From: Micromonospora acroterricola
Lineage (GTDB): Bacteria; Actinomycetota; Actinomycetes; Mycobacteriales; Micromonosporaceae
DNA: 64,000 nt
NCBI RefSeq assembly: GCF_003172955.1
Contig: NZ_QGKR01000352.1
Location: 1-64,000 of the forward strand
Direction of reading: 5' to 3'
The notes under the pieces were generated by a model, which was not told where the DNA came from, ran no database searches, and worked only from the letters and a program-made list of their open reading frames with translations. Made by a program: the position numbers and the translations under genes. Shown here piece by piece: positions 27,110 to 49,538 of the stretch. The stretch's first letter is position 1, and each line of letters opens with the position of its first letter.

Positions 27110-27145
27110 ACGCTTCGATGTCGCTATTCGGACTAGGTGCTTCAT

Positions 27146-27163
27146 GTCGGGAAATTCCCCGAC
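27146..27163. terminator. Short hairpin after the DUF2267 gene
   Basis: GTCGGG (27146-27151) pairs with CCCGAC (27158-27163) over a six-base AT-rich loop, 37 bases past the stop codon. The stem is short, so termination would be partial. Confidence 0.35.
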
Positions 27164-27372
27164 GCAAATGGTAAGTGACCGGAAATTAATCTGCCTGGTG
27201 GCGCTTTAGGCGAAAATCACGCACCGCGCCAGGGGGATGATCGGATGATGTTCGTCGTCCCTTGTCGGAGCCTCTGATCGCCCCTTCGGGTCGACTCTAG
27301 TCGATGATCTATCGCGACACGCATCGAGCCATATGCTCCTTCCATTGTGAAGTCCTGGGGGGGATGATGATC
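27164..27372 (+). promoter_or_regulatory. Upstream region of the NRPS-PKS operon
   Basis: This stretch is clearly less GC-rich than the flanking genes, as expected for a promoter. It holds a perfect inverted repeat TCGACT-CT-AGTCGA (27291-27304), a likely operator, and a TATGCT box at 27332-27337 without a good -35. There are also two similar G-run plus ATGATC segments (about 27232-27242 and 27357-27372), the second directly before the cysteine-rich ORF. The first could start a 10-codon ORF at 27245. No regulator gene lies near, so control is from elsewhere. Confidence 0.45.
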
Positions 27373-27426
27373 ATGGCTGTCGATTGCTGCGCGTCCGTCT
27401 GTTGTGGAGCGGTGTGCGCGTCCTGA
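27373..27426 (+). CDS. Cysteine-rich 17-residue upstream ORF (leader peptide candidate)
   Basis: A tiny ORF encoding MAVDCCASVCCGAVCAS, five Cys in 17 residues as two CC pairs and one single. A run of seven G at 27357-27363 gives a ribosome site nine bases before the ATG; earlier in-frame ATGs at 27364 and 27367 are too close to it. The TGA at 27424-27426 is followed after one base by the ATG at 27428 of the first NRPS gene, which has no good ribosome site of its own, so coupling is likely. Cysteine-codon upstream ORFs that tune downstream translation are known in mycobacteria, and by analogy this may sense cysteinyl-tRNA supply. It is too short to be a normal RiPP precursor. Chance cannot be excluded. 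Confidence 0.4.
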   Translation: MAVDCCASVCCGAVCAS

Positions 27427-27427
27427 G

Positions 27428-30400
27428 ATGGGAAACTCGACGCTGATCCAGCGCTTCGGCGACGCCGCCTCTGCCCGATCCGATCGTCCCGCCGTCCTCG
27501 GCGACACCGGCGCGCTCGACTACGCCGCCCTCGCCGGTCTGGCCGGCGGGCACGCCGACCTGCTCGCCGCGGCCGGCGTGCGACCCGGTGACCGGGTCGG
27601 CCTGCTGACCCCGCACGGCGCGGGCACCATCGCCGCGATCCTCGGCACGCTCGCCGCGGGCGCCGCCTACGTGCCGCTCGACCCCGGCTTCCCGGAGCAG
27701 CGGCTGCGCCACCTGCTCGACGGCGCCGACGTCACCGTCCTGCTCTGCGGTGGCGAGCACACCGAGCTGGCCCGACGGCTCGCCGCCGACCGGCCCGGCC
27801 TGCGGGTCGTCCCGGCCGTCGACGTGCGGCCGGCGCCGCTGCGGCCCGTGCCGGTGGACGCGGACGCGCTCGCGTACGTGCTGTTCACCTCCGGCTCCAC
27901 CGGGCGGCCCAAGGCCGTCGGGCAGACCCACCGCAACCTGACGCACGTCGTGGACAACCAGATCGCCACCCTCGAACTGCGCCCGGACGACCGGCTCAGC
28001 CTGCTCGCCTCGTTCAGCTTCGACGCGGCCATCCCCGACCTCTACCCGGCGCTGCTCACCGGCGCCGCGGTCGTCCCGGTCGACCTGCGCCGGCACGGGC
28101 TGGCGTACGCCACCGAACACCTGGCCCGGCACGGCGTCACCGTCTACCACTCCACCCCGACCGTCTACCGGTACCTGCTGGACACTCCGGGCGTCGAGCG
28201 GCTGGACCGGGTGCGGGTGGTGCTGCTCGGCGGTGAACAGGCCACCTACACCGACGCGGCCCGCGCCCGAGGCCGCTTCGCGCCGGGCTGCGTGCTGGTC
28301 AACGGCTACGGGGCCACGGAGATGACCTTCGCCGCCCGGTACGCGCTGCCGCTGACCGACGTCGAGCCCGAGGCCACCGGTCCACTGCCGATCGGCAGCG
28401 CCCTGCCCGGGTACGCGCTGCGGCTGGCCCCGGACGGCGAGATCGTCGTACGCGGCCGGCACCTCGCCCCCGGCTACCTCGACCAGGTCAGCGACCGGTT
28501 CGGGCACGACCCCGACGGCGTGCCGGTGTACCGCACCGGCGACCTGGGGGAGCTGCTGCCCACCGGCGAGCTGCGCTGTCTCGGCCGGCTCGACCGGCAG
28601 GTCAAGGTGCGCGGGTTCCGGGTCGAGTTGACCGAGATCGAGGCGGTGCTCGCCGCCGAGCCCGGCGTCGCCGAGGTGCGGGCCATCGCCCGCGACGGCG
28701 AGCTGCTGGCGTACGTCCGGTCGGGCGGGCCGCCGGTGGACCCGGCGACGTTGCGCGCCGCCCTGGCCCGGCAACTGCCCGAGTACGCGCTGCCCCGCGC
28801 CGTCGTACCGGTCGCCGCGTTCCCCCTGACCGTCAGCGGGAAGATCGACGAGCGGGCGCTGCCGGACCCGGCACGGGCGGTGCCGCCCGGCGACCGGCCG
28901 GCCACGCCGACCGAGCGAATCGTGCACGACATCTGGTGCGCCGTGCTCGGCCGGCACGCGGTCGGCCGCACCGACAGCTTCTTCGACGTCGGCGGGCAGT
29001 CCCTGCTGCTCGGCCAGGTGCAGCAGCGGCTGGCCGAACGGTTCGGTGTGGCGGTGCCGCTGCTGCGGCTCTTCGACCACCCGACGGTCGCCGCCCAGGC
29101 CCGGCTGGTCGACCCGCCGGCGCCGACGACCCCGTCGGTGGTCGCCCCGGCACAGGCCCAGGCCGCCGTGCCGCCGAGCGCAGCCGGCCCGCCCGCCGCG
29201 CCGGGCGGTGTCCGCGAGTACACCGGCGACGAGATCGCCGTGGTCGGTCTCGCCGGCCGGTTCCCCGGGGCGCCGGACGTGGCCACCTTCTGGTGGAACC
29301 TGTGCGCCGGGGTGGACGCGATCCACGACCACAGCGACGAGGAACTGGCCGCGCTGGGCGTCGGCCCCGGGCTGCGCGCCGACCCCCGGCACGTGAAGGC
29401 CACCGGCCGGCTCGACGGCGTCGCCGACTTCGACGCCGAGTTCTTCGCCTTCGGCGAGCGGGAGGCCGCCCGCACCGACCCGCAGCACCGGCTGTTCCTG
29501 GAGACCGCCTGGGAGGCGCTGGAGGACGCCGGTCACGACCCGGCCCGGTTCCCCGGCCTGGTCGGCGTGTACGGCGCGACCGCCGTCAACCGTTACTTCC
29601 TGTTCCACCTCATGGACAACCCGGCGGTGGTCGGCGACGTCGACCCGGACGACTGGGAGGCCCGGCTGGTCGGCCGGCAGCTCACCGACCACCTGCCCGG
29701 CCAGGTCGCGTACCGGTTGGGGCTGACCGGGCCGGCGGTGGCGGTGCAGAGCGCCTGTTCCAGCTCGTTGGTCGCGGTCTGCCTCGCCGCGCAGAGCCTG
29801 GCCGACTACCAGTGCGACCTCGCCCTGGCCGGCGGGGTGAGCGTGACGTGGCCCCGGCACCGGCACACCCCCGGCGGCCTGGCCTCCCCGGACGGCCGTT
29901 GCCGGGCCTTCGACGAGGGCGCCCAGGGTGCCGGCTTCGGCTCCGGCGTCGGGGTGGTGGCGCTGCGCCGGCTCGCCGACGCGCAGGCCGACGGCGACCG
30001 GGTCCTCGCGATCCTGCCCGGCTGGGCGGTCACCAACGACGGCGCCGACCGGGCCGGGTACGCCGTTCCCGGCCCGGCCGGGCAGGCCGCCGCGGTGGCC
30101 GGTGCGCTCGCCGCCGCCGAGGTCGCCCCCGGCGAGGTCCGCTTCATCGAGGCGCACGGCAGCGGCACGCCGCTCGGCGACGCCATCGAGGTGGCCGCGC
30201 TGCACGAGGTGTACCAGGGCGCCGCGCCCGCCGAGACCTGCGCGCTCGGCTCGGTGAAGACGACCATCGGTCACCTGGACGCGGCGGCCGGCATCGCCGG
30301 GCTGATCAAGGCGGTGCTCGCCGTGCAGCACGGTGTCATCCCGCCGAACCTGCACTTCACGCGCCCGCACCCGGAGATCGACCTGGCGGCCGGCCCCTTC

Positions 30401-30742
30401 TACGTGCCGACGAAGGTGCGGGACTGGCCGGAGGCGCCGCGCCGGGTCGCCGGGGTCAGCTCGTTCGGGCTGGGCCGGCGCGAGTTCGGCTGCCGGGCCG
30501 CCGTCGTCGCCACCGACGCGGCCGGCGCGGTCGCCGCGCTGGACGAGCTGCTGGCCACCGACGCCCGGGTCGCCGGCCCGGCCGGTGCGCTGCGCGAGCT
30601 GGCCGCCACCTGGGTCGCCGGCCAGGCCCTGGACTGGACGGCCCTGCACCCGGCCGACGGTGTCCGACGCACCTCGCTGCCCACCTACCCCTTCCAGCGG
30701 CAGCGGTACTGGATCGACCCCCCTCAGAAAGGCGTGCGGTGA
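27428..30742 (+). CDS. Hybrid NRPS-PKS protein, A-PCP-KS (no AT)
   Basis: A 1104-residue loading-type protein. The adenylation domain (about 1-490) has the [12 protein letters not shown]-loop-like motif near 153; the specificity positions read D-A-P-H-L-G-G-F-A-K, which I cannot assign to an amino acid. The carrier domain (about 500-570) has Ser525 in GGQSLL for phosphopantetheine. The ketosynthase (about 600-1020) has Cys777 (SACSSS), His910 (EAHGSGT) and His949 (TIGHLD), a full triad, but the usual GGTNAHV block is replaced by GRREFGC. No acyltransferase follows, only a post-AT-like end (LPTYPFQRQRYWI). It would load one amino acid and pass it to a decarboxylative step using an extender from elsewhere. 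The start is ATG at 27428, coupled to the Cys-rich ORF; GTG at 27404 is in frame. Confidence 0.85.
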   Translation: MGNSTLIQRFGDAASARSDRPAVLGDTGALDYAALAGLAGGHADLLAAAGVRPGDRVGLLTPHGAGTIAAILGTLAAGAAYVPLDPGFPEQRLRHLLDGADVTVLLCGGEHTELARRLAADRPGLRVVPAVDVRPAPLRPVPVDADALAYVLFTSGSTGRPKAVGQTHRNLTHVVDNQIATLELRPDDRLSLLASFSFDAAIPDLYPALLTGAAVVPVDLRRHGLAYATEHLARHGVTVYHSTPTVYRYLLDTPGVERLDRVRVVLLGGEQATYTDAARARGRFAPGCVLVNGYGATEMTFAARYALPLTDVEPEATGPLPIGSALPGYALRLAPDGEIVVRGRHLAPGYLDQVSDRFGHDPDGVPVYRTGDLGELLPTGELRCLGRLDRQVKVRGFRVELTEIEAVLAAEPGVAEVRAIARDGELLAYVRSGGPPVDPATLRAALARQLPEYALPRAVVPVAAFPLTVSGKIDERALPDPARAVPPGDRPATPTERIVHDIWCAVLGRHAVGRTDSFFDVGGQSLLLGQVQQRLAERFGVAVPLLRLFDHPTVAAQARLVDPPAPTTPSVVAPAQAQAAVPPSAAGPPAAPGGVREYTGDEIAVVGLAGRFPGAPDVATFWWNLCAGVDAIHDHSDEELAALGVGPGLRADPRHVKATGRLDGVADFDAEFFAFGEREAARTDPQHRLFLETAWEALEDAGHDPARFPGLVGVYGATAVNRYFLFHLMDNPAVVGDVDPDDWEARLVGRQLTDHLPGQVAYRLGLTGPAVAVQSACSSSLVAVCLAAQSLADYQCDLALAGGVSVTWPRHRHTPGGLASPDGRCRAFDEGAQGAGFGSGVGVVALRRLADAQADGDRVLAILPGWAVTNDGADRAGYAVPGPAGQAAAVAGALAAAEVAPGEVRFIEAHGSGTPLGDAIEVAALHEVYQGAAPAETCALGSVKTTIGHLDAAAGIAGLIKAVLAVQHGVIPPNLHFTRPHPEIDLAAGPFYVPTKVRDWPEAPRRVAGVSSFGLGRREFGCRAAVVATDAAGAVAALDELLATDARVAGPAGALRELAATWVAGQALDWTALHPADGVRRTSLPTYPFQRQRYWIDPPQKGVR

Positions 30743-33700
30743 ACTGGTTCCTCTCCGCCGGCAGCCGCGATCCGGCACCGGTGCAGTTGTTCTGCCTGCC
30801 CTACGCCGGCGCCGGCGCCAGCGCGTTCCGCCACTTCCCGGCCCGGTTCGGCCCGGACGTCGAGGTGCTGCCGGTGCAGCTGCCCGGGCGGGAGAACCGG
30901 ATCAGCGAGGACCCCCGGTTCCGGGTGGCCGACGTGGCCACCGCCATCGCCGAGCGGGCCGAGGGGCCGTACGCCCTCTACGGCCACTCGATGGGCGGGC
31001 GGCTCGGCTTCGAGGTGGTCCGCGAGCTGCGGCGCGCCGGGCTGCCGCTGCCGCTGCGGCTGTACGTCGGCGGCGCCCGCGCCCCGCACGTCAGCGCGCC
31101 CAGCGTCTTCGACGGCTTGTCCATGGTGGACGACGACGAGCTGCTGCGCCGGCTCCGCAGCGGCGGCGGGTTGCCCGCCGGTGTGCTGGAGCATCCCGAG
31201 CTGGTCGAGCTGCTGCTGCCGCTGCTGCGTGCCGACTTCGAGCGGGTGGACGGCTACCGGTACCGGCCCGAGGAGCCGCTGCCCGTGCCGATCGTGGTGT
31301 TCAGCGGCCGCGACGACCGGGCGGTGAGCCGGGAGCAGAGCGCCGCCTGGCGTGAGCACACGGCCGCCGGTTTCACCCTGCACGAGCTGGACGGCGGGCA
31401 CTTCTTCCTGCACGACGCGCTGCCCGAGCTGGCCGCCGCGATCCGCGCCGACCTGGCCGCCGCAATCCGCGTCGACCCGGGCCCGGCCCGTCCGGTCGCC
31501 GTCGCGGCCGACGCGCACCGGGTGCCGCTGGGCGACACCGGCTGGTCGGTGTGGCGGGACGGCATCCTGCGCAGCACCGGCTTCCCGGCCGACGGGCTGA
31601 TGCTGCTGTCCGCCCCGCAGGCCGCCGAGGCGGCCGACGAGCTGCTGGCCACCGGCGCCGGCGCCGAACTGTTCGACAAGGAGTTCGCCGAGGCGGTGTC
31701 CGCCAGTGGCCGGCGGCTCGTCGAGCTGGCCGCCGACCCGCTGCTGCGCGAGGCGGTCACCTGGCAGAACCGGGGCGCGCTGGCCGCTCTCGACGGGCTC
31801 GTCCGCGGTGGCCCGGACGCCCCGCGCAACGTTCGCCGGCGCGACCGGGAACGCGCCCTGCTCAGGTACTGGCAGCGCTACTGCGGCAAGAACGAGACCG
31901 TCGGCTTCTTCGGCCCGAGCTGCTGGGTCACCCTCGACCCGGAGCTTCCGGTCGCCGCCGAGGCACGCCCCGGTGCGACGCTGACCCGCCGGCGCTGGGT
32001 GTGGTTCGAGTCGTGGGCGCTGAGCGCGTACGCGCAGCGGATCGGCGGGGACGTGGCGGTGCGCCGCTGGTGGGCGCCCCGGCTCGCACCGCACCTGAGC
32101 CTCGCCGGCAGGGAGGTGCGCCGGCCGGGCCGGCCGCCGGTGCCACTGTCGCCGGTCGAGGCGGCGCTGCTCGCTGCCGCCGACGGCCGCCGCCCGGCCT
32201 GCGACCTGGTCACCGACCCGGCCATCGGGCTGCGCCGCCCGGAGGACGGGTACGCGCTGCTCGACCGGCTGGTGGAGCGGGAGCTGGCCACCTGGGACGC
32301 CGCGCTGCCGGTCAGCCCCGCCGCCGAGGAGGTGCTGCGGCAGCGGATCACGGAGATCGGCGACGCCCCCGCCCGCGCCGCCGCCGAGGCCGGCTTCGAC
32401 CGGCTGTGCGCCGCCCGGGACACCGTCGCCGTGGCGGCCGGCGACCCGGACCGGCTGCGCGCCGCGCTGGACGCGCTCGACGAGACGTTCACCGACCTGA
32501 CCGGGCAGCCGGCGCAGCGCCGGGCCGGCGAGATGTACGCCGGCCGGACGCTCTGCTACGAGGACACCAGCCGTGACCTGGACGTGGTCTTCGGCGCCCC
32601 GCTGCTGGACGGTCTCGCCGCGCCGCTGGCCGTGTTGCTGCGGGCTGCCCGCTGGCTGGCCGGCGCGCTGGAGGAGGCGTACGGGGCGTCGTTCCGGGAG
32701 CTGTACGACGAGCTGCGCGCCGAGGCTGGCGACGCCCCGGTGGCCCTGTCCGACCTGTGGTTCCTGGCGCAGGGCCTCTTCTGGGGCAGCGGGCCGCGCC
32801 CGGTCGACGCGGTGGCCACCGAGTTCGCCGCCCGCTGGGCCGGGCTGTTCGGGTTGACCGATCTGCCGGCGGGCAGCACCGACGTCCGGCTGGACGTGGC
32901 GGACCTGGCCGCCCGGGTCGACGAGGTCTTCCCGCCCGTCCCGCCGGGCTGGTCCAACTCCCGCCTGCACAGCCCGGACCTCCAGATCTGCGCCGCCGAC
33001 GCGGACGCGCTGGCCCGAGGCGACTACACCGTCGTGCTCGGTGAGCTGCACGCCGCCTGGGCGTCCTTCGACTGCCAGGCGTTCACCCCCTCGCACCCGG
33101 ACGTCGAGCGGCTGCGCGCCGCGCTGGCGGCCGACCTCGGCCCGGACCGGTTCCGGCTGCTCTTTCCCACCGACTGGCCCCGGCGTACCAGCCGGGTCGC
33201 CGAGGCGCTGATCGGCCCGACCGACCGGCTGCTGGCCTTCGCGCCCGCGCCCAACGCCGAGCCGGGGCGGGTGCTGCCCACCGTGGCGCTGACCGTGCAG
33301 GACGAGGCCGGCCGGCTGGTGGTCGCCGACACCGAAGGGCGGCGCTGGCCGCTGGCCGAGGTCTTCGCCGGTCTGCTCAGCGCGCACGCCGTCGACGGGT
33401 TCAAGCTGGTCGCCGCCGCGCCGTACACCCCGCGGATCACGCTCGACCGGCTCGTGGTGGCGCGGCAGACGTGGCGTACCACCGTCGGCGCGAGCGGCCT
33501 CGGCGCGGTGACCGGGGAGCGGGCCCGCTTCCTGGCGGTGCGGGACTGGCGGCGTCGGTTGGGCCTGCCGGAGCAGGTGTACGTCAAGCTCGGCACCGAG
33601 ACCAAGCCGTGCTTCGTCGACCTGAGCAGCCCCGCCTTCGCCAACATGTTCTGCGCCATGGTCCGGGCGGCGCACCGTGACGGCGGGGACGACACGACGC

Positions 33701-33825
33701 TGGTGGTCAGCGAGATGCTGCCCACCGCGCAGGATGCGTGGGTTCCCGACGCGGCCGGCCGGCGGTACTTCAGCGAACTGCGGCTGCACATCGTGGACAC
33801 CGACGAGTCGGAGCCGGCGCGATGA
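30739..33825 (+). CDS. Type II thioesterase fused to a LanB-type (lantibiotic dehydratase) domain
   Basis: A 1028-residue fusion. Residues 1-240 are a type II thioesterase: LFCLPYAGAGASAF opening, Ser84 in YGHSMGG, Asp192/193 in SGRDDR and His221 in GGHFFL. Residues 260-1010 match the lantibiotic dehydratase glutamylation domain (PF04738 type). Signatures are PLGDTGWSVWR at 263-273, RYWQRYCGKNETVGFFGP near 377-394 and the late segment ITLDRLVVARQTW followed by LPEQVYVKLGTETKPCFVDL. The SpaB_C elimination domain of full LanB enzymes is missing. LanB enzymes transfer Glu from glutamyl-tRNA to Ser/Thr hydroxyls, and PEARL relatives add amino acids from tRNA. Here a carrier-bound intermediate may be the acceptor, with the thioesterase clearing wrong products, which is inference. 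GTG at 30739 overlaps the previous stop. Confidence 0.85.
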   Translation: MNWFLSAGSRDPAPVQLFCLPYAGAGASAFRHFPARFGPDVEVLPVQLPGRENRISEDPRFRVADVATAIAERAEGPYALYGHSMGGRLGFEVVRELRRAGLPLPLRLYVGGARAPHVSAPSVFDGLSMVDDDELLRRLRSGGGLPAGVLEHPELVELLLPLLRADFERVDGYRYRPEEPLPVPIVVFSGRDDRAVSREQSAAWREHTAAGFTLHELDGGHFFLHDALPELAAAIRADLAAAIRVDPGPARPVAVAADAHRVPLGDTGWSVWRDGILRSTGFPADGLMLLSAPQAAEAADELLATGAGAELFDKEFAEAVSASGRRLVELAADPLLREAVTWQNRGALAALDGLVRGGPDAPRNVRRRDRERALLRYWQRYCGKNETVGFFGPSCWVTLDPELPVAAEARPGATLTRRRWVWFESWALSAYAQRIGGDVAVRRWWAPRLAPHLSLAGREVRRPGRPPVPLSPVEAALLAAADGRRPACDLVTDPAIGLRRPEDGYALLDRLVERELATWDAALPVSPAAEEVLRQRITEIGDAPARAAAEAGFDRLCAARDTVAVAAGDPDRLRAALDALDETFTDLTGQPAQRRAGEMYAGRTLCYEDTSRDLDVVFGAPLLDGLAAPLAVLLRAARWLAGALEEAYGASFRELYDELRAEAGDAPVALSDLWFLAQGLFWGSGPRPVDAVATEFAARWAGLFGLTDLPAGSTDVRLDVADLAARVDEVFPPVPPGWSNSRLHSPDLQICAADADALARGDYTVVLGELHAAWASFDCQAFTPSHPDVERLRAALAADLGPDRFRLLFPTDWPRRTSRVAEALIGPTDRLLAFAPAPNAEPGRVLPTVALTVQDEAGRLVVADTEGRRWPLAEVFAGLLSAHAVDGFKLVAAAPYTPRITLDRLVVARQTWRTTVGASGLGAVTGERARFLAVRDWRRRLGLPEQVYVKLGTETKPCFVDLSSPAFANMFCAMVRAAHRDGGDDTTLVVSEMLPTAQDAWVPDAAGRRYFSELRLHIVDTDESEPAR

Positions 33826-36131
33826 GCCACCTGCTGCCGCTGGGTGACACGGGTTGGTCCGTGTGGCGCCACCTGGTGCTGCGCACGGCCGGCTTCCCGG
33901 CCGCCGGGCTGGACGCCTTCGCCGCACCGGACGCCGCCGACGCCGCCGACGCGCTGCTGGCCGGCGAGGTCGCCGCCGAGATGTTCGAGAAGGCGTTCGC
34001 GGAGGCGCTGGCCGACTCGTCGGCGGCCGCCGGACGGATCGCCGCCGACCCGCTGCTGCGGGAGGCGGTCACCTGGCAGAACCCGGAGATGCTGATCGCC
34101 CTGGACGGCCTGCTGCGCACCGACCCGGCCGTACGCAACGTGCGGCGGCGGAAGCGCGAGTTGAGCCTGCTGCGTTACTGGCAGCGCTACTGCGGAAAGG
34201 CCGAGACGATCGGGTTCTTCGGTCCGGTCTGCTGGGGCACGCTCGATCCCACCGTGCGGGCGACCCGGCTGTGGCCGGGGCCGGGGCTGGTGTCCCGTCG
34301 CGAGGTGCACTTCGAGGCGTGGGCGCTGATCGCGTACGCCGACCGGCTCGCCGACGACCCGGCCGTACGCCGCTGGTGGGCGCCGGCACTGCCACCGCAC
34401 CTGAGCGTGGCGGGCCGATCGCTGCACCGGCCGCTGCACCCGCCGGTGGAGCTGTCCGTGCTCGACGCGCTGTTGCTGGCCGCCTGCGACGGGCGTACCC
34501 CGGCCTGGGCCGTGGTCGAGCGTGTCCGCGCCGACGGCGACGCCGGGCTGCGTACCGACGCCGACGGCTTCCTGCTGCTCGACCGGCTGGTCGAGCGCGA
34601 CCTGCTGACCTGGGACGCCGGCCTGCCGATCAGCCCTCGTGCCGAGCAGGTGCTGCGCGAGCGGCTGGCGGCGATCGGCGACCCGGCGCTGCGCGCCGAG
34701 GTGACCGCCGGTTTCGAACGGCTCTGCCTGGCCTGCGACGAGGTGGCCGCGAGCGCCGGAGACGCCGACCGGCTCGGCGCGGCGCTGGCCGCGCTGAACA
34801 CGGAGTTCACCGCCGTCACCGGCCGGCCCGCCACCCGGCAGGCCGGTCAGATGTACGCCGGCCGCACGGTCGCCTACGAGGAGACGGCCCGGGACCTCAC
34901 CGTCGCCGTGGGCGCCGACGTGCTCGACGCGCTCGCCGCTCCGCTGGCGGTGGTGCTCCAGGCGGCCCGTTGGCTGACCGCCGAGATCGGCGCCGCGTGC
35001 GAGGGGATCCTCGCCGAGCTGTACGAGGAGTTGCGCGCCGACGGGCCGGTACGGCTGGCCGACGTCTGGTCGTTGGCGCAGGGGTTGCTGATGGCCTCGG
35101 ACGGGCCGCTGGCCACCGCCGGCGCCGGCTTCACCGCCCGGTGGGCGGAGCTGTTCGACCTCGCGGCCCTGCCACCTGAGCAGCCCGAGTTGCGGTTGCG
35201 CAGCGCGGAGCTGGCCGACCGGGTGCGGAAGGTCTTCCCGGCGGAGTCGCCCGGCTGGCCGTCGGCCCGGATCCACAGCCCGGACGTGCAGATCAGCGCC
35301 GCGGACCTGGCCGCGCTGAACCGGGGCGAGTTCCTGCTGGTGCTCGGCGAGCTGCACCCGGCGAACGCCACGTTCGACAGTGCGGTCTTCGTGCCGTTCC
35401 ACCCGGACCCGGCGGCGCTGCGCGCCGGGATGGACACCGACGTCGGTCCGGCCCGGCTCCGGGTGCTCTACCCGGAGGGCTTTCCCCGCGTCACCACCCG
35501 CACCACCTCCGGGCTGACCGGCCCGGCCGACCGGCAACTCGGCATCGACACCGCCCGGGGCGGCGAGGTCGACCGGCTGGTCCCCGCAACCGGGGTGCGG
35601 GTGGTGCCCGACGGCGACCGGCTGGCGGCGGTGCTGCCCGACGGCAGCCGCTGGCCTCTCATGGAGATCTTCGCGAACCTGCTCGGCTCGCTGCTGCTGG
35701 ACAGCTTCAAGCTCCTCAACCCAGCGCCGCACACACCCAGGATCACCATCGACCGGCTGGTCGTGGCGCGACGCACCTGGCGGACCACGGTCGGGGAGAG
35801 CGGCCTGGCCGGGGTGAGCGGGGAGGCGGAGCGGTTCCTCGCGGTGCGGCGGTGGCGGGCCCGGCTCGGCCTGCCCGAGCGGGCGTTCGTGAAGGTCGGC
35901 ACCGAGGTCAAGCCGTGCTACGTCGACCTGACCGGCCCGCTCCACGCCCAGTCGCTGTGCGCGATGGTCGACGCCGCCGCCCGCAGCGGGCCGGACGTGA
36001 CGCTCGTGGTCAGCGAGCTGCTGCCGGCGCCGACCGACAGCTGGGTGACCGACGCGTCGGGCCGCGCCTACGTCAGCGAGCTGCGCCTGCAGGTCACCGA
36101 TCCGAGCAGCTATCCCGGGGGGAACCGTTGA
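33822..36131 (+). CDS. Stand-alone LanB-type (lantibiotic dehydratase-like) protein
   Basis: A 769-residue paralogue of the LanB half of the preceding protein. It begins almost at once with PLGDTGWSVWR and keeps REAVTWQNPEMLIALDG, RYWQRYCGKAETIGFFGP and ITIDRLVVARRTW, followed by LPERAFVKVGTEVKPCYVDL. It has no thioesterase and no C-terminal elimination domain. The matching order and length show a duplication of one gene; the partner may form a heterodimer or treat a second site. The usual LanB partners (LanC cyclase, leader peptide, elimination enzyme) are absent in the window. ATG at 33822 overlaps the previous TGA (ATGA). The biochemical role, Glu or other aminoacyl transfer from tRNA, is inferred from the family. 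Confidence 0.85.
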   Translation: MSHLLPLGDTGWSVWRHLVLRTAGFPAAGLDAFAAPDAADAADALLAGEVAAEMFEKAFAEALADSSAAAGRIAADPLLREAVTWQNPEMLIALDGLLRTDPAVRNVRRRKRELSLLRYWQRYCGKAETIGFFGPVCWGTLDPTVRATRLWPGPGLVSRREVHFEAWALIAYADRLADDPAVRRWWAPALPPHLSVAGRSLHRPLHPPVELSVLDALLLAACDGRTPAWAVVERVRADGDAGLRTDADGFLLLDRLVERDLLTWDAGLPISPRAEQVLRERLAAIGDPALRAEVTAGFERLCLACDEVAASAGDADRLGAALAALNTEFTAVTGRPATRQAGQMYAGRTVAYEETARDLTVAVGADVLDALAAPLAVVLQAARWLTAEIGAACEGILAELYEELRADGPVRLADVWSLAQGLLMASDGPLATAGAGFTARWAELFDLAALPPEQPELRLRSAELADRVRKVFPAESPGWPSARIHSPDVQISAADLAALNRGEFLLVLGELHPANATFDSAVFVPFHPDPAALRAGMDTDVGPARLRVLYPEGFPRVTTRTTSGLTGPADRQLGIDTARGGEVDRLVPATGVRVVPDGDRLAAVLPDGSRWPLMEIFANLLGSLLLDSFKLLNPAPHTPRITIDRLVVARRTWRTTVGESGLAGVSGEAERFLAVRRWRARLGLPERAFVKVGTEVKPCYVDLTGPLHAQSLCAMVDAAARSGPDVTLVVSELLPAPTDSWVTDASGRAYVSELRLQVTDPSSYPGGNR

Positions 36132-39100
36132 CCGATATCCTGTCCAGCAGAGCCGTACGGGGCGAGCCCCTGCCCTGGCCGGACGCGACGATCGCGGACC
36201 TGGTCGTCGCGCAGGCCGCGCGCACCCCGGACGCCGTGGCGGTGCGTCAGTGGGACGACCGGCTCACCTATGCTGAGCTGCTGTCCCTGGCCGCCGGGGT
36301 GGCCGCCGCGCTGCGCGCTCGGGGCGTCGGCCGGCAGACCCGGGTGGGTGTGTGCGGCGCCCGTCGGCCCGAGCTGGTGGCCACGGTGCTCGGTGTGCTG
36401 CTGGCCGGCGGCTGCTACGTGCCGCTGGAGCCGGGCGGCCCGCGTCGGCGGCTTCGCGGGATCGCCGCCGACGCGGGTGTGTCCCTCGTGGTCGGCGACG
36501 CCGCCGAGGCGGAGTTCGGCGGCGCGCCCGGCGTCGAGGCCGTCGGGCTGCCCGGCCCGGGCGTCCTCGTGCCCTGCCCGGCCCGACCCGGTGACCCGGC
36601 GTACGTGCTGTTCACCTCGGGCTCCACCGGCCGGCCGAAGGGCGTGCTCACCAGCCACCGCAACGTGGTCGAGTTCGTCACCGGCGTGGTCGCGCTCACC
36701 GGCGCCGACGCCGGCGTCCGCAGCCTCGGCATCGCCTCGCTCGGTTTCGACGCGGCCACCATGGACCTGTTCGTGCCGCTGCTGCTCGGCGGCTCGGTGC
36801 AGTTGCTCGGCGCCGAGGACCGCGCCGACCCGGTCCGGCTGGCCCGGTTCATCGCCGCGCACGAGGTCAACTGGGGCTTCATCACGCCGACCGTGCTGTC
36901 CATGCTGGACCCGGCGGAGCTGCCCGGCTGGCGCACGGTGCTCTGCGGCGGCGAGGCGGTGCCGGCCGCGCTGGCCGCCCGCTGGGCGCCCGGCCGCCGG
37001 TTCCTCAACGGCTACGGCCCCACCGAGACGACCGTGCTGGCGGTCAGCGGCCCGTTGAGCGCCTCGGAGTCCGACCCGATGCCGATCGGCCGGCCGCTGC
37101 CCAACCACCGGGCGTACGTGGTGGACGTGGCGCTGGACCCGGTGCCGCCGGGGGAGACCGGTGAGCTGCTGATCGGCGGGCCGGGGTTGGCCGACGGCTA
37201 CCTGGGCCGGCCCGGGTTGACCGCCGAGCGGTTCGTCCCGGATCCGTTCTCCGGGCTGCCCGGCGAGCGGCTGTACCGCACCGGTGACCTGGTCCGGCAC
37301 GACCCGGACGGGCGGATCGTCTACCTCGGTCGGACCGACCGGCAGGTCAAGATCCGCGGGCAGCGCATCGAGCTGGGCGAGGTGGAGGCGGTGTTGGCCG
37401 ATCTGCCCGGGGTGACCGGGGTCGCGGTCGAGGCGGTCCCCGGCCCGGCCGGCGCCGAGCTGGTCGCGTTCCTCACGCCGGAGGACGCGCCCGACGACGA
37501 CCGGCTGCGGTCGTACGCCGGCAGCCGGCTGACCACGGCGATGCTGCCGGCCCGGGTGCTGCGCCGCACCGCGCTGCCGGTCAGCCCGATCAGCGGCAAG
37601 CTGGACCGGCCGGCGTTGCGCGCGCTGGCCGCGGCGCACACCGTCGCACCCGCCGACACCGCCGCACCGGATGCGCGCGGCGGGTCCCTCGCGGCGGCCG
37701 TGGCCGGCATCTGGACCCGGTTGCTCGGGGCGGCGCCCGGGCCGGCGACCGACTTCCTCGCCGCAGGCGGCAACTCCATCGCCGCGATGCGCCTGGTCGC
37801 CGCGCTGCGCGCCGAACTGGGCCGGCAGGTCGACACCCGCGAGGTGTTCACCGCGCGCACCTTCGGCCGGCTGGCCGAGCGGGTGGCCGACGCACCCGTC
37901 GGCGACGACGGGCTGAGCACCGGCAACCCGCCCACCCTCTCGCCACCGCAACGACGACTCTGGTTCGTCGACCAGCTCGCGCCGTCCAGCGCGCCGTACA
38001 ACATCGCGGTGGCGCACCGGCTGCGCGGTCCGCTGGACATCGCCGCCCTCGGCGCGGCGCTGCGGACCGTCGCCGAGCGGCACGACGTGCTGCGCTGGCG
38101 AATCCCGCAGACCGCCGGCGTGCCCTACGCGGTCTGCGCCGAGCCGACCGACGTGGCGGTGCCGGTGGTCGACCTGACCACCAGCGCCGAGCCGGAGGCG
38201 GAGCTGGCCCGGATGCTCACCGCCGGCGCCGCGCACCCCTTCGACCTGGCCACCGGGCCGCCCTGGCAGGTGACCGTCTACCGGCTCGGGCCGACCGAGC
38301 ACGTGCTGGCCGCGACCTGGCACCACGCCGTGTTCGACGGCTGGTCGGAGCGGGTCTGCTACGACGATCTCGCGGCCGCGTACGCCCAGGCGGTGGCCGG
38401 GCGATCGCCCGCGCTGCCGGAGCTGCCGGCCCGTTACGCCGACTACGCGGTGTGGCGCGCCGAGCGGGACCGGCTGCGGGGCGGGCCCGACCTGACGTGG
38501 TGGACCGGGCACCTGGGCGGCGCGCCGACGGTGCTGGACCTGCCCCGGGACCGGCCCCGACCGGCGGTGCAGACCTACGCCGGGGCGGAGGCGGCCGTCC
38601 GGCTCTCCGCCGGCACCGACCGTGCGGTCCGCGAGCTGGCCGAGCGGCGCGGCACCACGGTCGCCGCGGTGCTGCTGGCCGCGTTCGGTGAGCTGATCGC
38701 GCGGCTCACCGGCGGCGACGACCACGTGCTCGGCGCGATCGTCGCCGACCGGCGGCTGGCCGCCTTCGACGATGTGATCGGCTTCTTCATCGACACGGTG
38801 CCGGTGCGGGTCCGCACCGGCGGGGCGAGCTTCGCCGAGCTGGTCGACCGGTGCGCAGGGGAGCTGCACGAGGCCACCGCCCACCCCGGGGCGCCGCTGG
38901 AACGCATCATCGAGGCGCTCGGCGTCGGCCGGGACACCGCCCGCGCGCCGCTGGTGCAGGTGCTGTTCAACGTGCTCAACTTCGCGCCGCCCCGGCTCAC
39001 CCTGAGCGGGCTGACCGCCGAACCGGTGCCGGTGCCCAAGCCGGGCTCACCGTTCGACATCACCGTCTACGTGGTGCAGCACGCCGGTCGTACCGGCGTC

Positions 39101-39649
39101 GAGGTGGTCTACAACCCGGACCTGTTCGACGCCGCGCGCATCGACGACCTGCTCGCCGACCTGGCCGAGCTGGTGGGTGCGCTGGCCGCCGCGCCGGACA
39201 CGCCAGCCCGCGAGGTGGCCACCGCGCTGCCCCGGCCCACGGTGCGGGTGCCGCAGCTCGGCGCGATGACGGTCGCCGGTGGCGAGCCAGCCGGCCCGCC
39301 ACCGGGGCTGGTGCCGGCCGGCCCCGACGGGCTCACCGAGACCGAGGAGCTGATCGCCGGGATCTGGCGGGAGGTGCTGGAGCGCGACCGGGTCGGGGTG
39401 ACCGACAACTTCTTCGACATCGGCGGGCACTCCCTCGCGCTCGCCGCGGTGCACGCCCGGCTGACCGCCGCCACCGGCCGGTCCATCCCCATGCTCGACC
39501 TGTTCCGCCATCCCACCGTCCGGGCGCTCGCCGCCAGCCTCGACGGCGCCGCCGACCGGCCCGAGCTGGCGCGAGCCGCCCTGCGTGCCGCGGCCCGCCG
39601 CAGTCGTACCCGCCGTATCCCTCCCCGCCGCCCCGGCGGCACCGCGTGA
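36128..39649 (+). CDS. NRPS, A-PCP-C-PCP
   Basis: A 1173-residue synthetase with an incomplete second module. The A domain (about 1-510) has the [11 protein letters not shown] motif; specificity positions read D-A-M-F-L-G-G-V-L-K, suggesting a hydrophobic residue such as Val, Leu or Ile with low certainty. The first carrier has Ser550 (GGNSIA). The condensation domain (about 595-1020) has the intact HHAVFDG motif, His732/733 and Asp737. The second carrier has Ser1102 (GGHSLA). No A domain serves this second carrier, so it must be loaded in trans, act as a way-station, or receive its residue by another enzyme such as the adjacent LanB-type proteins. The TTG start at 36128 overlaps the previous stop and has seven G just upstream as ribosome site. 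Confidence 0.85.
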   Translation: MTDILSSRAVRGEPLPWPDATIADLVVAQAARTPDAVAVRQWDDRLTYAELLSLAAGVAAALRARGVGRQTRVGVCGARRPELVATVLGVLLAGGCYVPLEPGGPRRRLRGIAADAGVSLVVGDAAEAEFGGAPGVEAVGLPGPGVLVPCPARPGDPAYVLFTSGSTGRPKGVLTSHRNVVEFVTGVVALTGADAGVRSLGIASLGFDAATMDLFVPLLLGGSVQLLGAEDRADPVRLARFIAAHEVNWGFITPTVLSMLDPAELPGWRTVLCGGEAVPAALAARWAPGRRFLNGYGPTETTVLAVSGPLSASESDPMPIGRPLPNHRAYVVDVALDPVPPGETGELLIGGPGLADGYLGRPGLTAERFVPDPFSGLPGERLYRTGDLVRHDPDGRIVYLGRTDRQVKIRGQRIELGEVEAVLADLPGVTGVAVEAVPGPAGAELVAFLTPEDAPDDDRLRSYAGSRLTTAMLPARVLRRTALPVSPISGKLDRPALRALAAAHTVAPADTAAPDARGGSLAAAVAGIWTRLLGAAPGPATDFLAAGGNSIAAMRLVAALRAELGRQVDTREVFTARTFGRLAERVADAPVGDDGLSTGNPPTLSPPQRRLWFVDQLAPSSAPYNIAVAHRLRGPLDIAALGAALRTVAERHDVLRWRIPQTAGVPYAVCAEPTDVAVPVVDLTTSAEPEAELARMLTAGAAHPFDLATGPPWQVTVYRLGPTEHVLAATWHHAVFDGWSERVCYDDLAAAYAQAVAGRSPALPELPARYADYAVWRAERDRLRGGPDLTWWTGHLGGAPTVLDLPRDRPRPAVQTYAGAEAAVRLSAGTDRAVRELAERRGTTVAAVLLAAFGELIARLTGGDDHVLGAIVADRRLAAFDDVIGFFIDTVPVRVRTGGASFAELVDRCAGELHEATAHPGAPLERIIEALGVGRDTARAPLVQVLFNVLNFAPPRLTLSGLTAEPVPVPKPGSPFDITVYVVQHAGRTGVEVVYNPDLFDAARIDDLLADLAELVGALAAAPDTPAREVATALPRPTVRVPQLGAMTVAGGEPAGPPPGLVPAGPDGLTETEELIAGIWREVLERDRVGVTDNFFDIGGHSLALAAVHARLTAATGRSIPMLDLFRHPTVRALAASLDGAADRPELARAALRAAARRSRTRRIPPRRPGGTA

Positions 39650-39663
39650 CGAAGGACAGCCTG

Positions 39664-42600
39664 ATGAGCAACCCGACCGCAACAGACCCGCCCCACGAGG
39701 GCATCGAACCGATCGCGATCGTCGGCCTGGCCGCGCGCCTACCCGGCGCCGCCGACGTGCACGAGTTCTGGCGCAACCTGGTCGACGGCGTGGAGTCGGC
39801 CACCGAGCTGACCCGCGAGGAGCAGCTGGCCCGGGGCGCGACCGTCGAGGAGGTCGACGACCCGGGCTGGGTCAACCGCGCCCCGCTGGTCGACGGCTAC
39901 GACGAGTTCGACGCCACGCTGTTCGGGATGACCGCCCGGGAGGCGGAGCTGACCGACCCGCAGCACCGGCTGTTCCTGGAGACCTGCCACACCGCGCTCG
40001 AGGACGCCGGCTACGACCCGGCCCGCTACGACGGCGCGATCGGCGTGTACGCCGGCACCGGCGGCAACACGTACCTGCACCGCAACGTGCTGCGCAACCG
40101 GCGGGTCGGCGGCAGCCCGCACGGCGCGGTCTCCATCGCCACCGGCAACTCGCCGAACTACGTCGCCACGAACGTGTCGTACCGGCTGGACCTGCGCGGG
40201 CCGAGCCTGACCGTGCACACCGCCTGCTCGACGTCGCTGGTCGCGTTCCACCTGGCCTGCGAGTCGCTGCGCAACGGCGAGTGCGACATGGCGCTCGCCG
40301 GTGGAGTGAACGTCGAGCTGCCGCACGTCGGCTACCTGGGCATGGAGGGCTTCACCTCGCCCGACGGCCGCTGCCGGCCGTTCGACGCCGCCGCCAACGG
40401 CACGGTGTGGGGCAGCGGCGTCGGGGTGACCCTGCTCAAGCGGCTCTCCGACGCGATCGCCGACGGCGACGCCATCCGCGCGGTCGTGCTCGGCAACGCC
40501 ATCAACAACGACGGCGCCGGCAAGGTCGGCTTCACCGCGCCCAGCATCGACGGGCAGATGGCGGCCATCGCCCAGGCCGTGGCGATGGCCGACGTCGACC
40601 CGCGCAGCATCAGCTACGTCGAGGCGCACGGCACCGGCACCGCGATGGGCGACCCGATCGAGGTGGCGGCGCTCTCCGCGGTGTACACCCGCGACACCGA
40701 CGAGCGGGGCTGGTGCGGCATCGGCTCGGTGAAGTCGAACATCGGCCACCTCAGCCAGCCCTCCGGCATCGTCAGCGTCATCAAGACGGTGCTCGCGATG
40801 GAACACGGGCTGATCCCGCCGACGATCAACTTCGAGACGCCGAACCCGGCCGTCGAGTTCGCCGACACCCCGTTCTACGTGGCGAACACCCTCACCAAGT
40901 GGGACACCGACGGCGGACCGCGCCGGGCCGGGGTCAGCTCGTTCGGCATCGGCGGAACCAACGCCCACGTGGTGCTGGAGGAGGCGCCGACGGCGCACCA
41001 CGGCGACCGTCGGGTGCCCCCGGCGCACCTGCTCCAGGTCAGCGCGGCCACCCCGAGCGCACTGGACGCCGCGGTGCGGCGCCTCGCCGCCCACCTGGAC
41101 GGCGCCGCGGACGCCGGGCCCGCGTACCTCGCCGACGTCGCGCACACGCTGCGCGTCGGCCGTCGCCCGCACCCCCACCGCCGCGCGGTGGTCGCCACCG
41201 ACCTCCCCAGCGCCGTGACCGCCCTGCGCACCCCGGTGCGCGGCCAGCGCGGACCGCAACCATTGACCGACCGTCCAGCCCCGACAGTAGGGTTCCTCTT
41301 CTCCGGTCAGGGCTCCCAGTACGCCGGGATGGGCGCGCAGCTCTACGCCGAGCAGCCCCGCTTCGCCGCCGTGGTCGACGAGTGCGCCGAGCTGCTCCGC
41401 CTCGACCTGGGCCTGGACCTGCGGGACCTGATCCTCGGCCGGGACCCGGCGGCGGGGGAGAAGCTCACCGAAACCTGGTACACCCAGCCGGCGCTGTTCA
41501 CCGTCGAGTACGCCCTGGCCGTGCTCTGGCAGGAGGCCGGTGTCCGGCCGGCCGCGATGATCGGCCACTCCATCGGCGAGTACGTCGCCGCCACCGTGGC
41601 CGGGGTGTTGAGCCTGCCGGACGCGCTGCGGGTGGTCGCCGCGCGGGGCCGGCTGATGCAGTCGCTGCCCGCCGGGTCGATGCTCGCCGTCGTGCTGGAC
41701 GAGTCGGTGGTCGCCGAGTTGCTGCCAGAGGGACTCTCGGTGGCCACGGTCAACGGCCCGGGCACCTGCGTGGTGGCCGGCGAGACCGCCGCCGTCGAGG
41801 CGTTCGCCACGACGCTGGCCGGCAAGTCCAAGGTGCTGCGCACCTCGCACGCGTTCCACTCGCCGATGATGGAGCCGATCCTCGCCGAGTTCACCGCGCT
41901 GATGGGCACGGTGTCGCTGCGCCCGCCGACGGTGCCGTTCCTGTCGAACGTCACCGGCACCTGGATCACCGCCGAGCAGGCCACCGACCCGGCGTACTGG
42001 GCCGCGCACCTGCGCCGGCCGGTCCGTTTCGGTGACTGCGTGGCCACACTGCTGGCGGCGGGCATTTGGCAGCTGGTCGAGTGTGGTCCGGGCCGGCAGT
42101 TGGCCAACCTGGCCCGGATGCAGACCGCGAAGGCCGCGCCGGAGCAGCGCGCCCTCGTCCCGCTGGGCAGCCTGCCCGGCGCCGGGGAGAACACCGGCGA
42201 CCTGGCCGCCCTGCTCGGCACCGCCGGCGCGCTGTGGTGCGCGGGCCTGCCGGTGCGCGTCGACGCCGATCCGGCGGCCCGGCGGGTGCCGCTGCCCACG
42301 TACCCCTTCGAGCGTCGCCGCTACTGGATCGACCCGGACCCGGAGCAGCCGGTCGCGACGGCCCCGGCGGAGACCGGGCCGCGACCGCTCGCCGAGTGGT
42401 TCGCGGTGCCGGTCTGGCGCCAGGCCGCGCCGCTGCCGCCGGCCGGGTCGCTGGGCCGCTGCCTGGTCCTCACCGCGGGTTCGCGCGGCGACGCGCTGGT
42501 CGCCGGCCTGCGGGCCGCCGGCGCCGACCCGGTGCCGGTACGCCCCGGCGACTCCTTCGCCGCCGCCGACGGCGGCTACCGGCTGCGCCCCGGCGTACGC

Positions 42601-45155: not shown

Positions 45156-46109
45156 ATGAGCGACACGATCGCCACGCTGCCCGTGGTCGTCGAATCCGAC
45201 GGCCGGGCGCTGACCGAACTGATCACCGAGCGCCGCGCCGAGTTGCGGGCAACCCTCGCCGAGCAGGGCGGCCTGCTGTTCCGCGGCTTCGACGTGGGCG
45301 GGGTGGACGGCTTCGACCAGGTGGTCCGGGCGCTGTCCGGTGAGCCGCTGACCTACACCGAGCGGTCCTCACCGCGGCACGCCATCAAGGGCCGGGTGTA
45401 CACCTCGACCGACTACCCGCCGGACGAGGAGATCTTCCTGCACAACGAGAACTCGTACCAGGCGCGCTGGCCGTTGACGCTGTTCTTCTACTGCATCACG
45501 GCGCCGTTGACACTGGGTGCCACCCCGCTGGCCGACGTCCGTCAGGTCTACCGGGAGATCGACCCGGCGGTACGCGAGGAGTTCGTCCGCCGCCGCTGGA
45601 TGCTGATGCGCAACTTCCACGAGGACTTCGGCACCACCTGGCAGCACGTGTTCGGCACCGACGACCGGGCCGAGGTCGAGGCGTACGCGGCGGCGAACCG
45701 GATCAGCCTGGAGTGGGTGGGCCGCGACGGGCTGCGTACGCGGGCGGTCCGCGACGCCGTGCACCACCGGCCCGGCTCGGACACGCCCCGCTGGTTCAAC
45801 CACGCCACGTTCTTCCACGTGAGCAGCCTGGCGAAGGACCTCCAGGAGGGCCTGCTGGCGATGTTCGGGGCTGACGGGCTGCCGTCGAACACCTACTACG
45901 GCGACGGCGGCGAGATCCCCGCCGACGTCATGGACCACCTGCGCGCCGCCTACCGGGCCGCCAGCGTCCGCTTCGACTACCAGCGCGACGACGTGCTGGT
46001 GGTGGACAACATGACCGCCGCGCACGGCCGTGAGCCGTTCACCGGCCCCCGCAGGATCGCGGTCGCGATGGCCGAACCGCACACCCCCGACACCGATGGA
46101 GCACAGTGA
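45156..46109 (+). CDS. SyrP-type Fe(II)/2-oxoglutarate-dependent hydroxylase (TauD family)
   Basis: A 317-residue non-haem iron dioxygenase. The facial triad reads His96-x-Glu98 (LHNENSYQ) and His290 (AAHGREPFTG), with the 2-oxoglutarate arginine in the GPRRIAVAM segment. The sequence resembles SyrP, which beta-hydroxylates Asp while bound to a carrier protein, more than free-amino-acid hydroxylases. The downstream C-A-PCP module carries an Asn/Asp-type code, so beta-hydroxylation of that residue is the expected job. The ATG at 45156 has AGGAG and GAG repeats upstream. The stop overlaps the mbtH-like start. Confidence 0.88.
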   Translation: MSDTIATLPVVVESDGRALTELITERRAELRATLAEQGGLLFRGFDVGGVDGFDQVVRALSGEPLTYTERSSPRHAIKGRVYTSTDYPPDEEIFLHNENSYQARWPLTLFFYCITAPLTLGATPLADVRQVYREIDPAVREEFVRRRWMLMRNFHEDFGTTWQHVFGTDDRAEVEAYAAANRISLEWVGRDGLRTRAVRDAVHHRPGSDTPRWFNHATFFHVSSLAKDLQEGLLAMFGADGLPSNTYYGDGGEIPADVMDHLRAAYRAASVRFDYQRDDVLVVDNMTAAHGREPFTGPRRIAVAMAEPHTPDTDGAQ

Positions 46110-46297
46110 TGGCCGAACCCCGATTCCTGGTCGTGCGCAACGACGAGGAGCAGTACTCCATCTGGTCGGCCGAGCGGGAGCTCCCGGCGGGGTGGCACGA
46201 CGCCGGGTTCGCCGGCACCCGCGAGGAGTGCCTGGCGCACGTCGACACCGTCTGGACCGACATGCGTCCCCGTTCGGTCCGCGAGGCGAGCCAGTGA
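46109..46297 (+). CDS. MbtH-like protein
   Basis: A 62-residue MbtH-family chaperone for adenylation domains. The family signature is clear: RNDEEQYSIWSAERELPAGW, then GTREECLAHVDTVWTDMRP with the invariant tryptophans. It should bind one or more A domains in this cluster to keep them soluble and active. The ATG at 46109 shares its A with the TGA of the hydroxylase gene (TGATG), and GGAG lies seven bases upstream; a GTG at 46106 is also in frame. Confidence 0.95.
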   Translation: MAEPRFLVVRNDEEQYSIWSAERELPAGWHDAGFAGTREECLAHVDTVWTDMRPRSVREASQ

Positions 46298-49400: not shown

Positions 49401-49538
49401 ATGCGGGCGCTGTTCAGCAGCCCCGTGGTGGCCGACCTGGCCGCCCAGATCGAACAGCGGATCGCCGCCGAACTCGACGAGCTCTCCGAAACCGAGGTCG
49501 CCGCGCTGCTCGCGGCGGAGAAGGACACACCGTCATGA
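46422..49538 (+). CDS. NRPS module C-A-PCP, predicted to activate Asn (or Asp)
   Basis: A 1038-residue elongation module. The condensation domain (about 1-430) has HHAVFDS at 139-145: the catalytic second His (140) and Asp144 are kept, while the usual final Gly is Ser. The A domain (about 445-950) has [11 protein letters not shown], and its specificity positions read D-L-T-K-V-G-E-V-G-K, very near the Asn code DLTKLGEVGK and less near the Asp code. The carrier has Ser974 in LGGNSLR. With the SyrP-type hydroxylase two genes upstream it probably adds beta-hydroxy-Asn or beta-hydroxy-Asp. The ATG at 46422 has GGAGG nine bases upstream, behind the repeat element. Confidence 0.9.

Follow-up and report, generated by a model that had tools for sequence, protein, structure and literature searches.

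The closest described counterpart of the two genes treated here is snaE of the sna (threopeptin) cluster of Stackebrandtia nassauensis. SnaE adds Thr to the product of a nonribosomal peptide synthetase (NRPS)-polyketide synthase (PKS) assembly line, after a ureido-forming condensation domain (Curea), whose stated mark is the motif EHHxxHDG, has left a free carboxylate (PMC11212132). Single alanine mutants of the E and the third H of this motif cut the SnaA product to the detection limit (PMC11212132). Our genes, encoding TE-LanB1 and LanB2, lie in a 64,000-nucleotide stretch of Micromonospora acroterricola DNA (RefSeq assembly GCF_003172955.1, contig NZ_QGKR01000352.1, positions 1 to 64,000; here, the window). 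A preliminary description of the window, made from the sequence alone, had rated the novelty of these genes too highly, as the SnaE work dates from 2024, estimates about two thousand such clusters, and already mentions fusions of such ligases to thioesterase (TE) or thiolation domains, the TE case in one sentence (PMC11212132). We consider it probable that TE-LanB1 and LanB2 are amide-forming ligases similar to the peptide aminoacyl-tRNA ligases (PEARLs) and not glutamylating dehydratases, because both carry the PEARL residue set, of which five LanB dehydratases keep only 5 to 7 of 13 positions; the TE would free a carboxylate, and LanB2 would add a second residue.

Two further sets of published systems bear on the locus. 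The PEARLs TglB, AmmB2, and BhaB7/BhaBCTrp, from pathways for ribosomally synthesized and posttranslationally modified peptides (RiPPs), extend a ribosomal scaffold peptide (PMC11962472, PMC12945691). Orphan NRPS-PKS clusters, pks/nrps-2 of Micromonospora humidisoli AKA109 and Micromonospora sp. AKA38, have the domain order A PCP KS TE A PCP C PCP KS ATm KR DH ACP C Aasn PCP C Aser PCP TE (PMC9967187, Table 1), in which A, PCP, KS, C, AT, KR, DH, and ACP stand for adenylation, peptidyl carrier protein, ketosynthase, condensation, acyltransferase, ketoreductase, dehydratase, and acyl carrier protein domains; their product, x-x-y-mal-Asn-Ser, is a prediction only (PMC9967187). A near-identical order is given for pks/nrps-3 of strain TP-A0316, which is conserved in M. 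okii TP-A0468 (PMC8698034, Table 2). Beyond these three reports (PMC11212132, PMC9967187, and PMC8698034), we recognized nothing in the open-license literature on a TE-LanB/LanB tandem or its product.

A thioesterase-LanB fusion and its partner

The two proteins are encoded as follows.

30739..33825, plus strand: TE-LanB1 (ORF A), GTG start, 1028 amino acids, with PF00975 at residues 16-238 and the best PF04738 stretch at residues 332-774 in one open frame
30784..31452, plus strand: thioesterase domain of TE-LanB1, with the motifs GHSMG and GGHFF (PF00975, motif search)
31513..33822, plus strand: PEARL-like domain of TE-LanB1 (family profile match 1-766 of 769; alignment)
33822..36131, plus strand: LanB2 (ORF B), stand-alone PEARL-like protein, ATG start, 769 amino acids (PF04738, alignment, predicted fold)

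Both proteins match PF04738 (Lant_dehydr_N) well above the gathering cut-off of 28 bits (ORF A, 96 bits; ORF B, 110.3 bits) and are the sole PF04738 proteins found in the genome, which upholds the earlier assignment of two LanB homologs to an NRPS-PKS operon (27404-55045). Their coupling to assembly-line genes also stands, with 4-base overlaps at all three junctions (30739/30742, 33822/33825, and 36128/36131). ORF A, however, is not the plain LanB that it was taken for: a complete thioesterase (PF00975, 124.7 bits), which had been overlooked, takes up the first ~240 residues of this open frame. TE-LanB1 and LanB2 are 58% identical. In eight comparisons with four near relatives, dN/dS was 0.22-0.32 for LanB1 and 0.24-0.32 for LanB2; both proteins are under purifying selection of similar strength and are therefore not chance reading frames. 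The predicted structure of LanB2 (mean pLDDT, 82.9) gave 11 PDB matches at E < 0.001, all to LanB-type enzymes (MibB, TbtB, GodF, MadB, and NisB). By sequence, phmmer of LanB2 against the PDB returned two weak, unrelated matches only, and NCBIfam holds no model for either protein at E <= 0.001.

An alignment of 160 LanB-type proteins, from which further fragments were left out, was scored at 13 positions (LanB2 numbering: R21, Y119, R122, K126, T129, D488, E510, H512, R650, K697, D702, E753, and R755), picked from published PEARL residues and for invariance in this family, with LanB2 as the reference that matches itself by construction. All 13 are present in LanB1 and in 69 other intact LanB-type proteins of 44 related loci (L005-L048; 71 intact rows counting LanB2), and in 32 of 52 further high-scoring relatives, among which R at 697 (10 proteins) and S at 129 (7 proteins) are the commonest departures. 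The loci of most of these 52 contain NRPS or PKS domains, none being shown in 3 of the 40 cuts of ~20 kb concerned (L112-L151, with L117 at 14.6 kb; the three are L115, L116, and L142). The full set, if D is allowed at 510, is also found in 20 of 29 PEARL-like proteins, most of them from clusters that hold several genes of this type. Five LanB dehydratases keep 5, 5, 5, 5, and 7 of the positions; four of these rows were shown to carry the elimination domain PF14028, and the fifth, L053, was classed by length and PF04738 score. Three more LanB-like rows, L070, L073, and L074, fully match neither pattern; the first and the last of them come from the same region, as cuts that overlap.

All five LanBs have the R and P of the RxTPFG loop, whereas TE-LanB1 and LanB2 have K126 and T129 at these sites. 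Conversely, the residues of an ATP-grasp-like site (D488, E510, H512, R650, K697, E753, and R755) are all present in the pair and mostly lacking in the LanBs. By spacing, the positions fit residues that were mutated or modeled in PEARLs, given here in BhaB7 numbering: E753/R755 correspond to E813/R815, E510/H512 to E575/H577, R650, which lies 138 residues after H512, to R715, and Y119/R122 to Y205/R208 (PMC11962472, PMC12945691). The last two, which are modeled as contacts of the CCA end of tRNA in BhaB7, are kept in both proteins, unlike the other two such contacts (R197 and Q201). SnaE (L112) carries the same residues as the pair at these sites of the alignment. The motifs that the preliminary description had quoted as LanB glutamylation signatures are indeed present, but they are typical of the PEARL-like group, and K126 and T129 stand in place of the LanB R and P.

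PF14028 was found in neither TE-LanB1 nor LanB2, nor anywhere in the genome, while genomes with LanBs that served as positive controls gave it in 4 of 4 cases; the lack of a SpaB_C elimination domain is thus confirmed. No LANC_like domain (PF05147) exists on the window's contig, also as first noticed; one marginal piece, on contig C222, reached 25.1 bits against a cut-off of 23.2.

Relatives and history of the pair

The 44 related loci come from one scan of a genome collection and extend up to 10 kb to either side, most of them ending before the positions of the third and fourth C domains of the window (C3 and C4). A tandem pair is present in 27 (28 counting the window) and a single LanB in 15; L044 and L045, with broken LanB frames, were counted as neither. 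The TE fusion was flagged in 35 of the 44, namely in every tandem locus (27/27), in 7 single-LanB loci, and in L044 with its broken LanB frame. The TE serine motif is kept in all 33 fused frames and the GGHFF histidine in 31 of them; a loose pattern for the TE aspartate matched 28 of the 33. At E <= 1e-15 (two candidates scored per genome), the profile of these proteins has matches in 155 of the 354 genomes from the window's taxonomic family, and a hand count of the matches listed gave at least 47 genomes with a full-length adjacent pair, excluding partial pairs and the other-type pair of G528.

A tree was built by a quick method, with one support value, from 106 of the 160 aligned rows (12 window-type loci, the five LanBs, and all but 7 PEARL-like rows were left out). 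It separates 99 rows, including the window pair and SnaE, from the 7 PEARL-like rows with an SH-aLRT (Shimodaira-Hasegawa-like approximate likelihood ratio test) support of 100. One group of 20 rows (support 99) holds the LanB1 proteins together with the lone LanBs of M. avicenniae, M. antibiotica, and two Actinophytocola, and a second group, of 16 rows (support 100), holds the LanB2 proteins; within one locus, LanB1 and LanB2 are 53-58% identical. The separate LanB1 and LanB2 groups suggest that the pair arose long ago and has been passed on as a unit, with a probable loss of LanB2 in two Micromonospora.

Other arrangements occur among more-distant relatives. A LanB, a lone A domain, and a second LanB follow each other in L123, L124, L126, and L129, and also on a Streptomyces fungicidicus plasmid (NZ_CP023408.1; L079, 8482-16043), where a pyridoxal-phosphate (PLP) enzyme and an acyl carrier protein are present as well and no C domain is among the listed genes. 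A second Micromonospora cluster type (L026, L028, L034, and L036) has NRPS and PKS genes with a LanB between them and a further LanB-like match at the cluster end, on the opposite strand. Several PEARL-like genes stand together in L080 (13768-31242), L152, L153, L156, L158, and L159, from a Kitasatospora plasmid and genomes of the window's family; these stretches are probably RiPP-type PEARL pathways.

In a few cases, a LanB is fused to assembly-line domains. L127 (3541-11052) is a single open frame with the order A-PCP-Curea-A-PCP-LanB, and the same is seen by profile in L122; in L119, a LanB domain lies behind C-A-PCP on one chain, and in L146, a C-A-PCP unit is found by Pfam and the LanB by profile. 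The position of LanB behind thiolation domains (L127, L119, and L146) favors action near carrier domains, and the L127 frame suggests that SnaE-type ligases may act on a ureido intermediate that is still attached to the carrier.

The surrounding operon

The window belongs to a high-GC contig of 71,467 bases, and the closest relatives of the locus are Micromonospora. Within the plus-strand operon (27404-55045), neighboring genes overlap by 4 bases or sit close. Around TE-LanB1 and LanB2, which are second and third, the genes follow in this order by Pfam, the fused transporter being of the major facilitator superfamily (MFS).

27404..30742, plus strand: A1-PCP-KS1, an A-PCP-KS protein encoded by the gene that opens the operon (Pfam: AMP-binding, PP-binding, ketoacyl-synt N and C)
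36128..39649, plus strand: A-PCP-C-PCP protein (A2; C2 motif WHHAVFDG), TTG start (Pfam, motif search)
39646..45132, plus strand: PKS module KS-AT-KR-DH-ACP (Pfam)
45156..46109, plus strand: TauD/TfdA-type oxygenase, of the Fe(II)/2-oxoglutarate type by family (PF02668; PDB relatives by sequence)
46106..46297, plus strand: MbtH-like protein (PF03621, 71 bits)
46422..49538, plus strand: C-A-PCP module (C3 motif VHHAVFDS; Pfam), for which Asn is predicted in print for the same domain order (PMC9967187)
49535..55045, plus strand: C-A-PCP-TE module (C4 motif QHHIVGDG) fused in frame to an MFS transporter (Pfam), Ser predicted in print (PMC9967187)

Translation of A1-PCP-KS1 may really begin slightly downstream of 27404, at an ATG a few codons into the same frame. 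Within its protein, KS1 is accompanied by neither an AT nor an ACP, and it ranks with the best-conserved domains of the cluster (86-98% identity across window-type Micromonospora loci). The codes of the A domains of the last two modules, read by eye at what we take to be the Stachelhaus positions and not with a prediction tool, agree with Asn and Ser. Regions matching the TE and MFS parts of the last protein are also adjacent in L026, L028, L034, and L036. In a Pfam scan of 30 open reading frames of the window, no NRPS, PKS, or LanB domain was found outside the operon.

Small reading frames of at least 20 codons were sought in the operon gaps only. Ten of the 28 frames had some tblastn match among the 44 relatives, and the three most widespread all lie in the upstream leader, on both of its strands. 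One frame, of 40 codons (27304-27426), had matches in 26 of the 44 loci (tblastn, E <= 1). It was rejected as a ribosomal precursor because six of the matches contain a stop and the surrounding leader, 27101-27420, is conserved as DNA in 27 of the 44 loci (blastn). No precursor peptide candidate was recognized in the operon gaps, one matched frame having been followed in the relatives, which within this scope agrees with the preliminary description. Rfam gave no match at E <= 0.1 in 20000-62000; the leader is possibly a regulatory element.

Proposed mechanism, alternatives, and comparison with known systems

The preliminary description had proposed that the operon may use aminoacyl-tRNA to modify or extend a carrier-bound intermediate. 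Judging from the PEARL residue set and the characterized relative SnaE, extension of an assembly-line intermediate in this way still appears to be the best reading, while attachment of the substrate to a carrier is conjectural. Each ligase would bind ATP in its ATP-grasp-like site together with the CCA end of an aminoacyl-tRNA, phosphorylate a free carboxylate on the NRPS-PKS-made small molecule, and join the activated carboxylate to the amine of the amino acid carried by the tRNA; hydrolysis would then remove the tRNA, leaving a product one residue longer. The fused TE most likely frees the intermediate from a carrier domain and so provides the carboxylate for LanB1, after which LanB2 would add a second, different residue. 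A more specific version, which we put forward only tentatively, is that TE-LanB1 is a release-and-extend unit, combining ATP-driven reactivation with addition of a tRNA-borne amino acid on one polypeptide, that LanB2 adds another, and that no chain reversal is involved.

Several points weigh against ligase function of the pair. (i) Use of tRNA by SnaE is its authors' inference from homology (PMC11212132), SnaE belongs to a different, well-supported subclade, and we found no reported activity for any member of the subclade of the window pair. (ii) The published source of the carboxylate, Curea, is missing, and no carboxylate donor was identified. (iii) The 13 positions were selected partly for invariance in the family, and R21, Y119, R122, and D702 are also present in all five LanBs; they are therefore nondiscriminating, and the distinction rests on the other positions. 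(iv) The mapping to BhaB7 was made by spacing and by alignment to PEARL-like proteins, SnaE being the only characterized sequence compared. D488 (BhaB7 D558) is the least certain match (22 versus 17 residues before the ExH pair), and two of the four modeled CCA-contact residues, R197 and Q201, are not kept (LanB1 has D and A there, and LanB2 has K and S). (v) Among 29 same-genus genomes (that of the window and 28 of the 29 others returned by the family profile; G636 was left out), the tandem pair is listed in 28, G564 having one LanB among the matches listed, and PF14028, although absent from 11, which speaks for ligases, is present somewhere in 18. In three of these read by eye (G558, G655, and G663), PF14028 lies ~127-155 kb from the tandem pair, and in the sna genome (G742), PF14028 is matched twice, at distances of about 0.5 and 1.4 Mb from SnaE.

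Among the alternatives, it is rather unlikely, though less so than the others, that only one protein of the pair is a ligase of this kind and that the second has a different PEARL role, such as attaching an amino acid to a ring to provide a nitrogen, as reported for AmmB3/BhaB5, or serves as a partner protein. Attachment of Gly to an indole ring by PEARLs is known (PMC12945691), and the paralogs are only 53-58% identical within a locus and show 17 fixed differences, of which four lie within 2 residues of signature residues. Against such a division of labor, all 13 signature residues are present in both proteins, across all intact rows from the window and from L005-L048, and both paralogs are under similar constraint.

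Slightly less likely still is a threopeptin-like chain reversal by C3, which would expose a carboxylate for both ligases. The motif of C3, VHHAVFDS, is of an unusual HHxxxDS form, and C3-type domains adjoin four Curea domains in both of our C-domain trees with moderate support (SH-aLRT 97 in one; bootstrap/SH-aLRT 89/91 in the other). However, a single clade of C3-type and Curea domains, with the L132 row left out, is compatible with the data but not demanded by them (approximately unbiased [AU] test, P = 0.339), C3 sits late, after the PKS module, and it lacks the E and the third H whose replacement by alanine cut the SnaA product to the detection limit (PMC11212132). EHHxxHDG itself was found 0 times in six frames of the window, the sna control (L157) giving one match (EHHLVHDG), and in none of L005-L048 over the stretches covered. 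Elsewhere, it is present in L122, L127, and L133, thus in at least 3 of the 40 cuts, and the other 37 show none; these are lower bounds, as the sna cut L112 missed its own Curea, which was located in L157. LanBs linked to the motif fall into two separate parts of the tree. As judged from the motif, chain reversal is not tied to the window's type of cluster.

Two further alternatives are very improbable. An action on a ribosomal peptide or carrier-protein tail as scaffold, like that of TglB on TglA, could be argued from the scaffold peptides of RiPP-pathway PEARLs (PMC12945691) and from the LanB-A-PLP enzyme-ACP-LanB mini-cluster of L079, but no precursor candidate was recognized in the operon gaps, and several relatives have stops within the conserved leader, 27101-27420. 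Dehydration through true LanB glutamylation, with transfer from glutamyl-tRNA as by NisB and MibB to a side-chain hydroxyl of a carrier-bound peptide and subsequent elimination to a dehydroamino acid, was rejected even though the PF04738 homology is real and hydroxyls could come from the TauD-type oxygenase or from the A domain with predicted Ser specificity, for the genome lacks PF14028, K126/T129 replace the R and P of the five LanBs, and the ATP-site residues mostly lacking there are present.

If TE-LanB1 and LanB2 both add tRNA-borne residues, product predictions based on A domains only would be incorrect for many actinomycete clusters, because a relative was found in 155 of 354 same-family genomes. 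The Curea explanation published for SnaE, the only characterized NRPS-linked member that we found, may leave much of the family unaccounted for, with no such domain in the window or in 37 of the 40 cuts, which are short enough to miss one. Should the release-and-extend version be true, two tRNA-supplied residues would occupy positions coded by no A domain, and tRNA-dependent elongation would be a general second arm of thiotemplate assembly. One-ligase and two-ligase clusters, otherwise alike over the stretch seen, offer a natural experiment.

Ligases of the SnaE kind (PMC11212132) and the NRPS-PKS part of the locus as an orphan cluster (PMC9967187) were thus known already. We take the window's cluster to be the same as the published orphans, on the basis of domain order and of M. 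okii TP-A0468 being locus L013 of our set. The tables of PMC9967187 and PMC8698034, in their accessible parts, list no LanB domains, whereas the window's cluster has two, and PMC8698034 writes KS/DH in the first protein with no TE after it, whereas the window has KS and then TE.

The LanB dehydratases NisB, MibB, TbtB, GodF, and MadB share the fold of the LanB2 model, while the five LanB rows compared differ from the pair at the RxTPFG loop and at most of the ATP-site residues. RiPP PEARLs resemble the pair in being LanB-like proteins without an elimination domain and in having the ATP-site residues and some CCA-contact residues in matching spacing; they differ in using a scaffold peptide, none being recognized in the operon gaps of the window, and the accessible parts of PMC11962472 and PMC12945691 mention no TE fusion for them. 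SnaE is similar to TE-LanB1 and LanB2 in its NRPS-PKS operon, in PF04738 as the only domain, in the PEARL residues, in the lack of a precursor peptide from the accessible account (PMC11212132), and in its side of the tree relative to the PEARL-like outgroup. In contrast, the sna cluster has one ligase and a separate thioesterase gene, SnaD (PMC11212132), while the window has two ligases, one of them fused to a TE; the sna cluster has a Curea domain, which the window lacks, and the subclades are separate. Compared with SnaE, then, what differs is a pair of apparently old and coinherited paralogs, the TE fusion in all 27 tandem relatives, and a window without EHHxxHDG.

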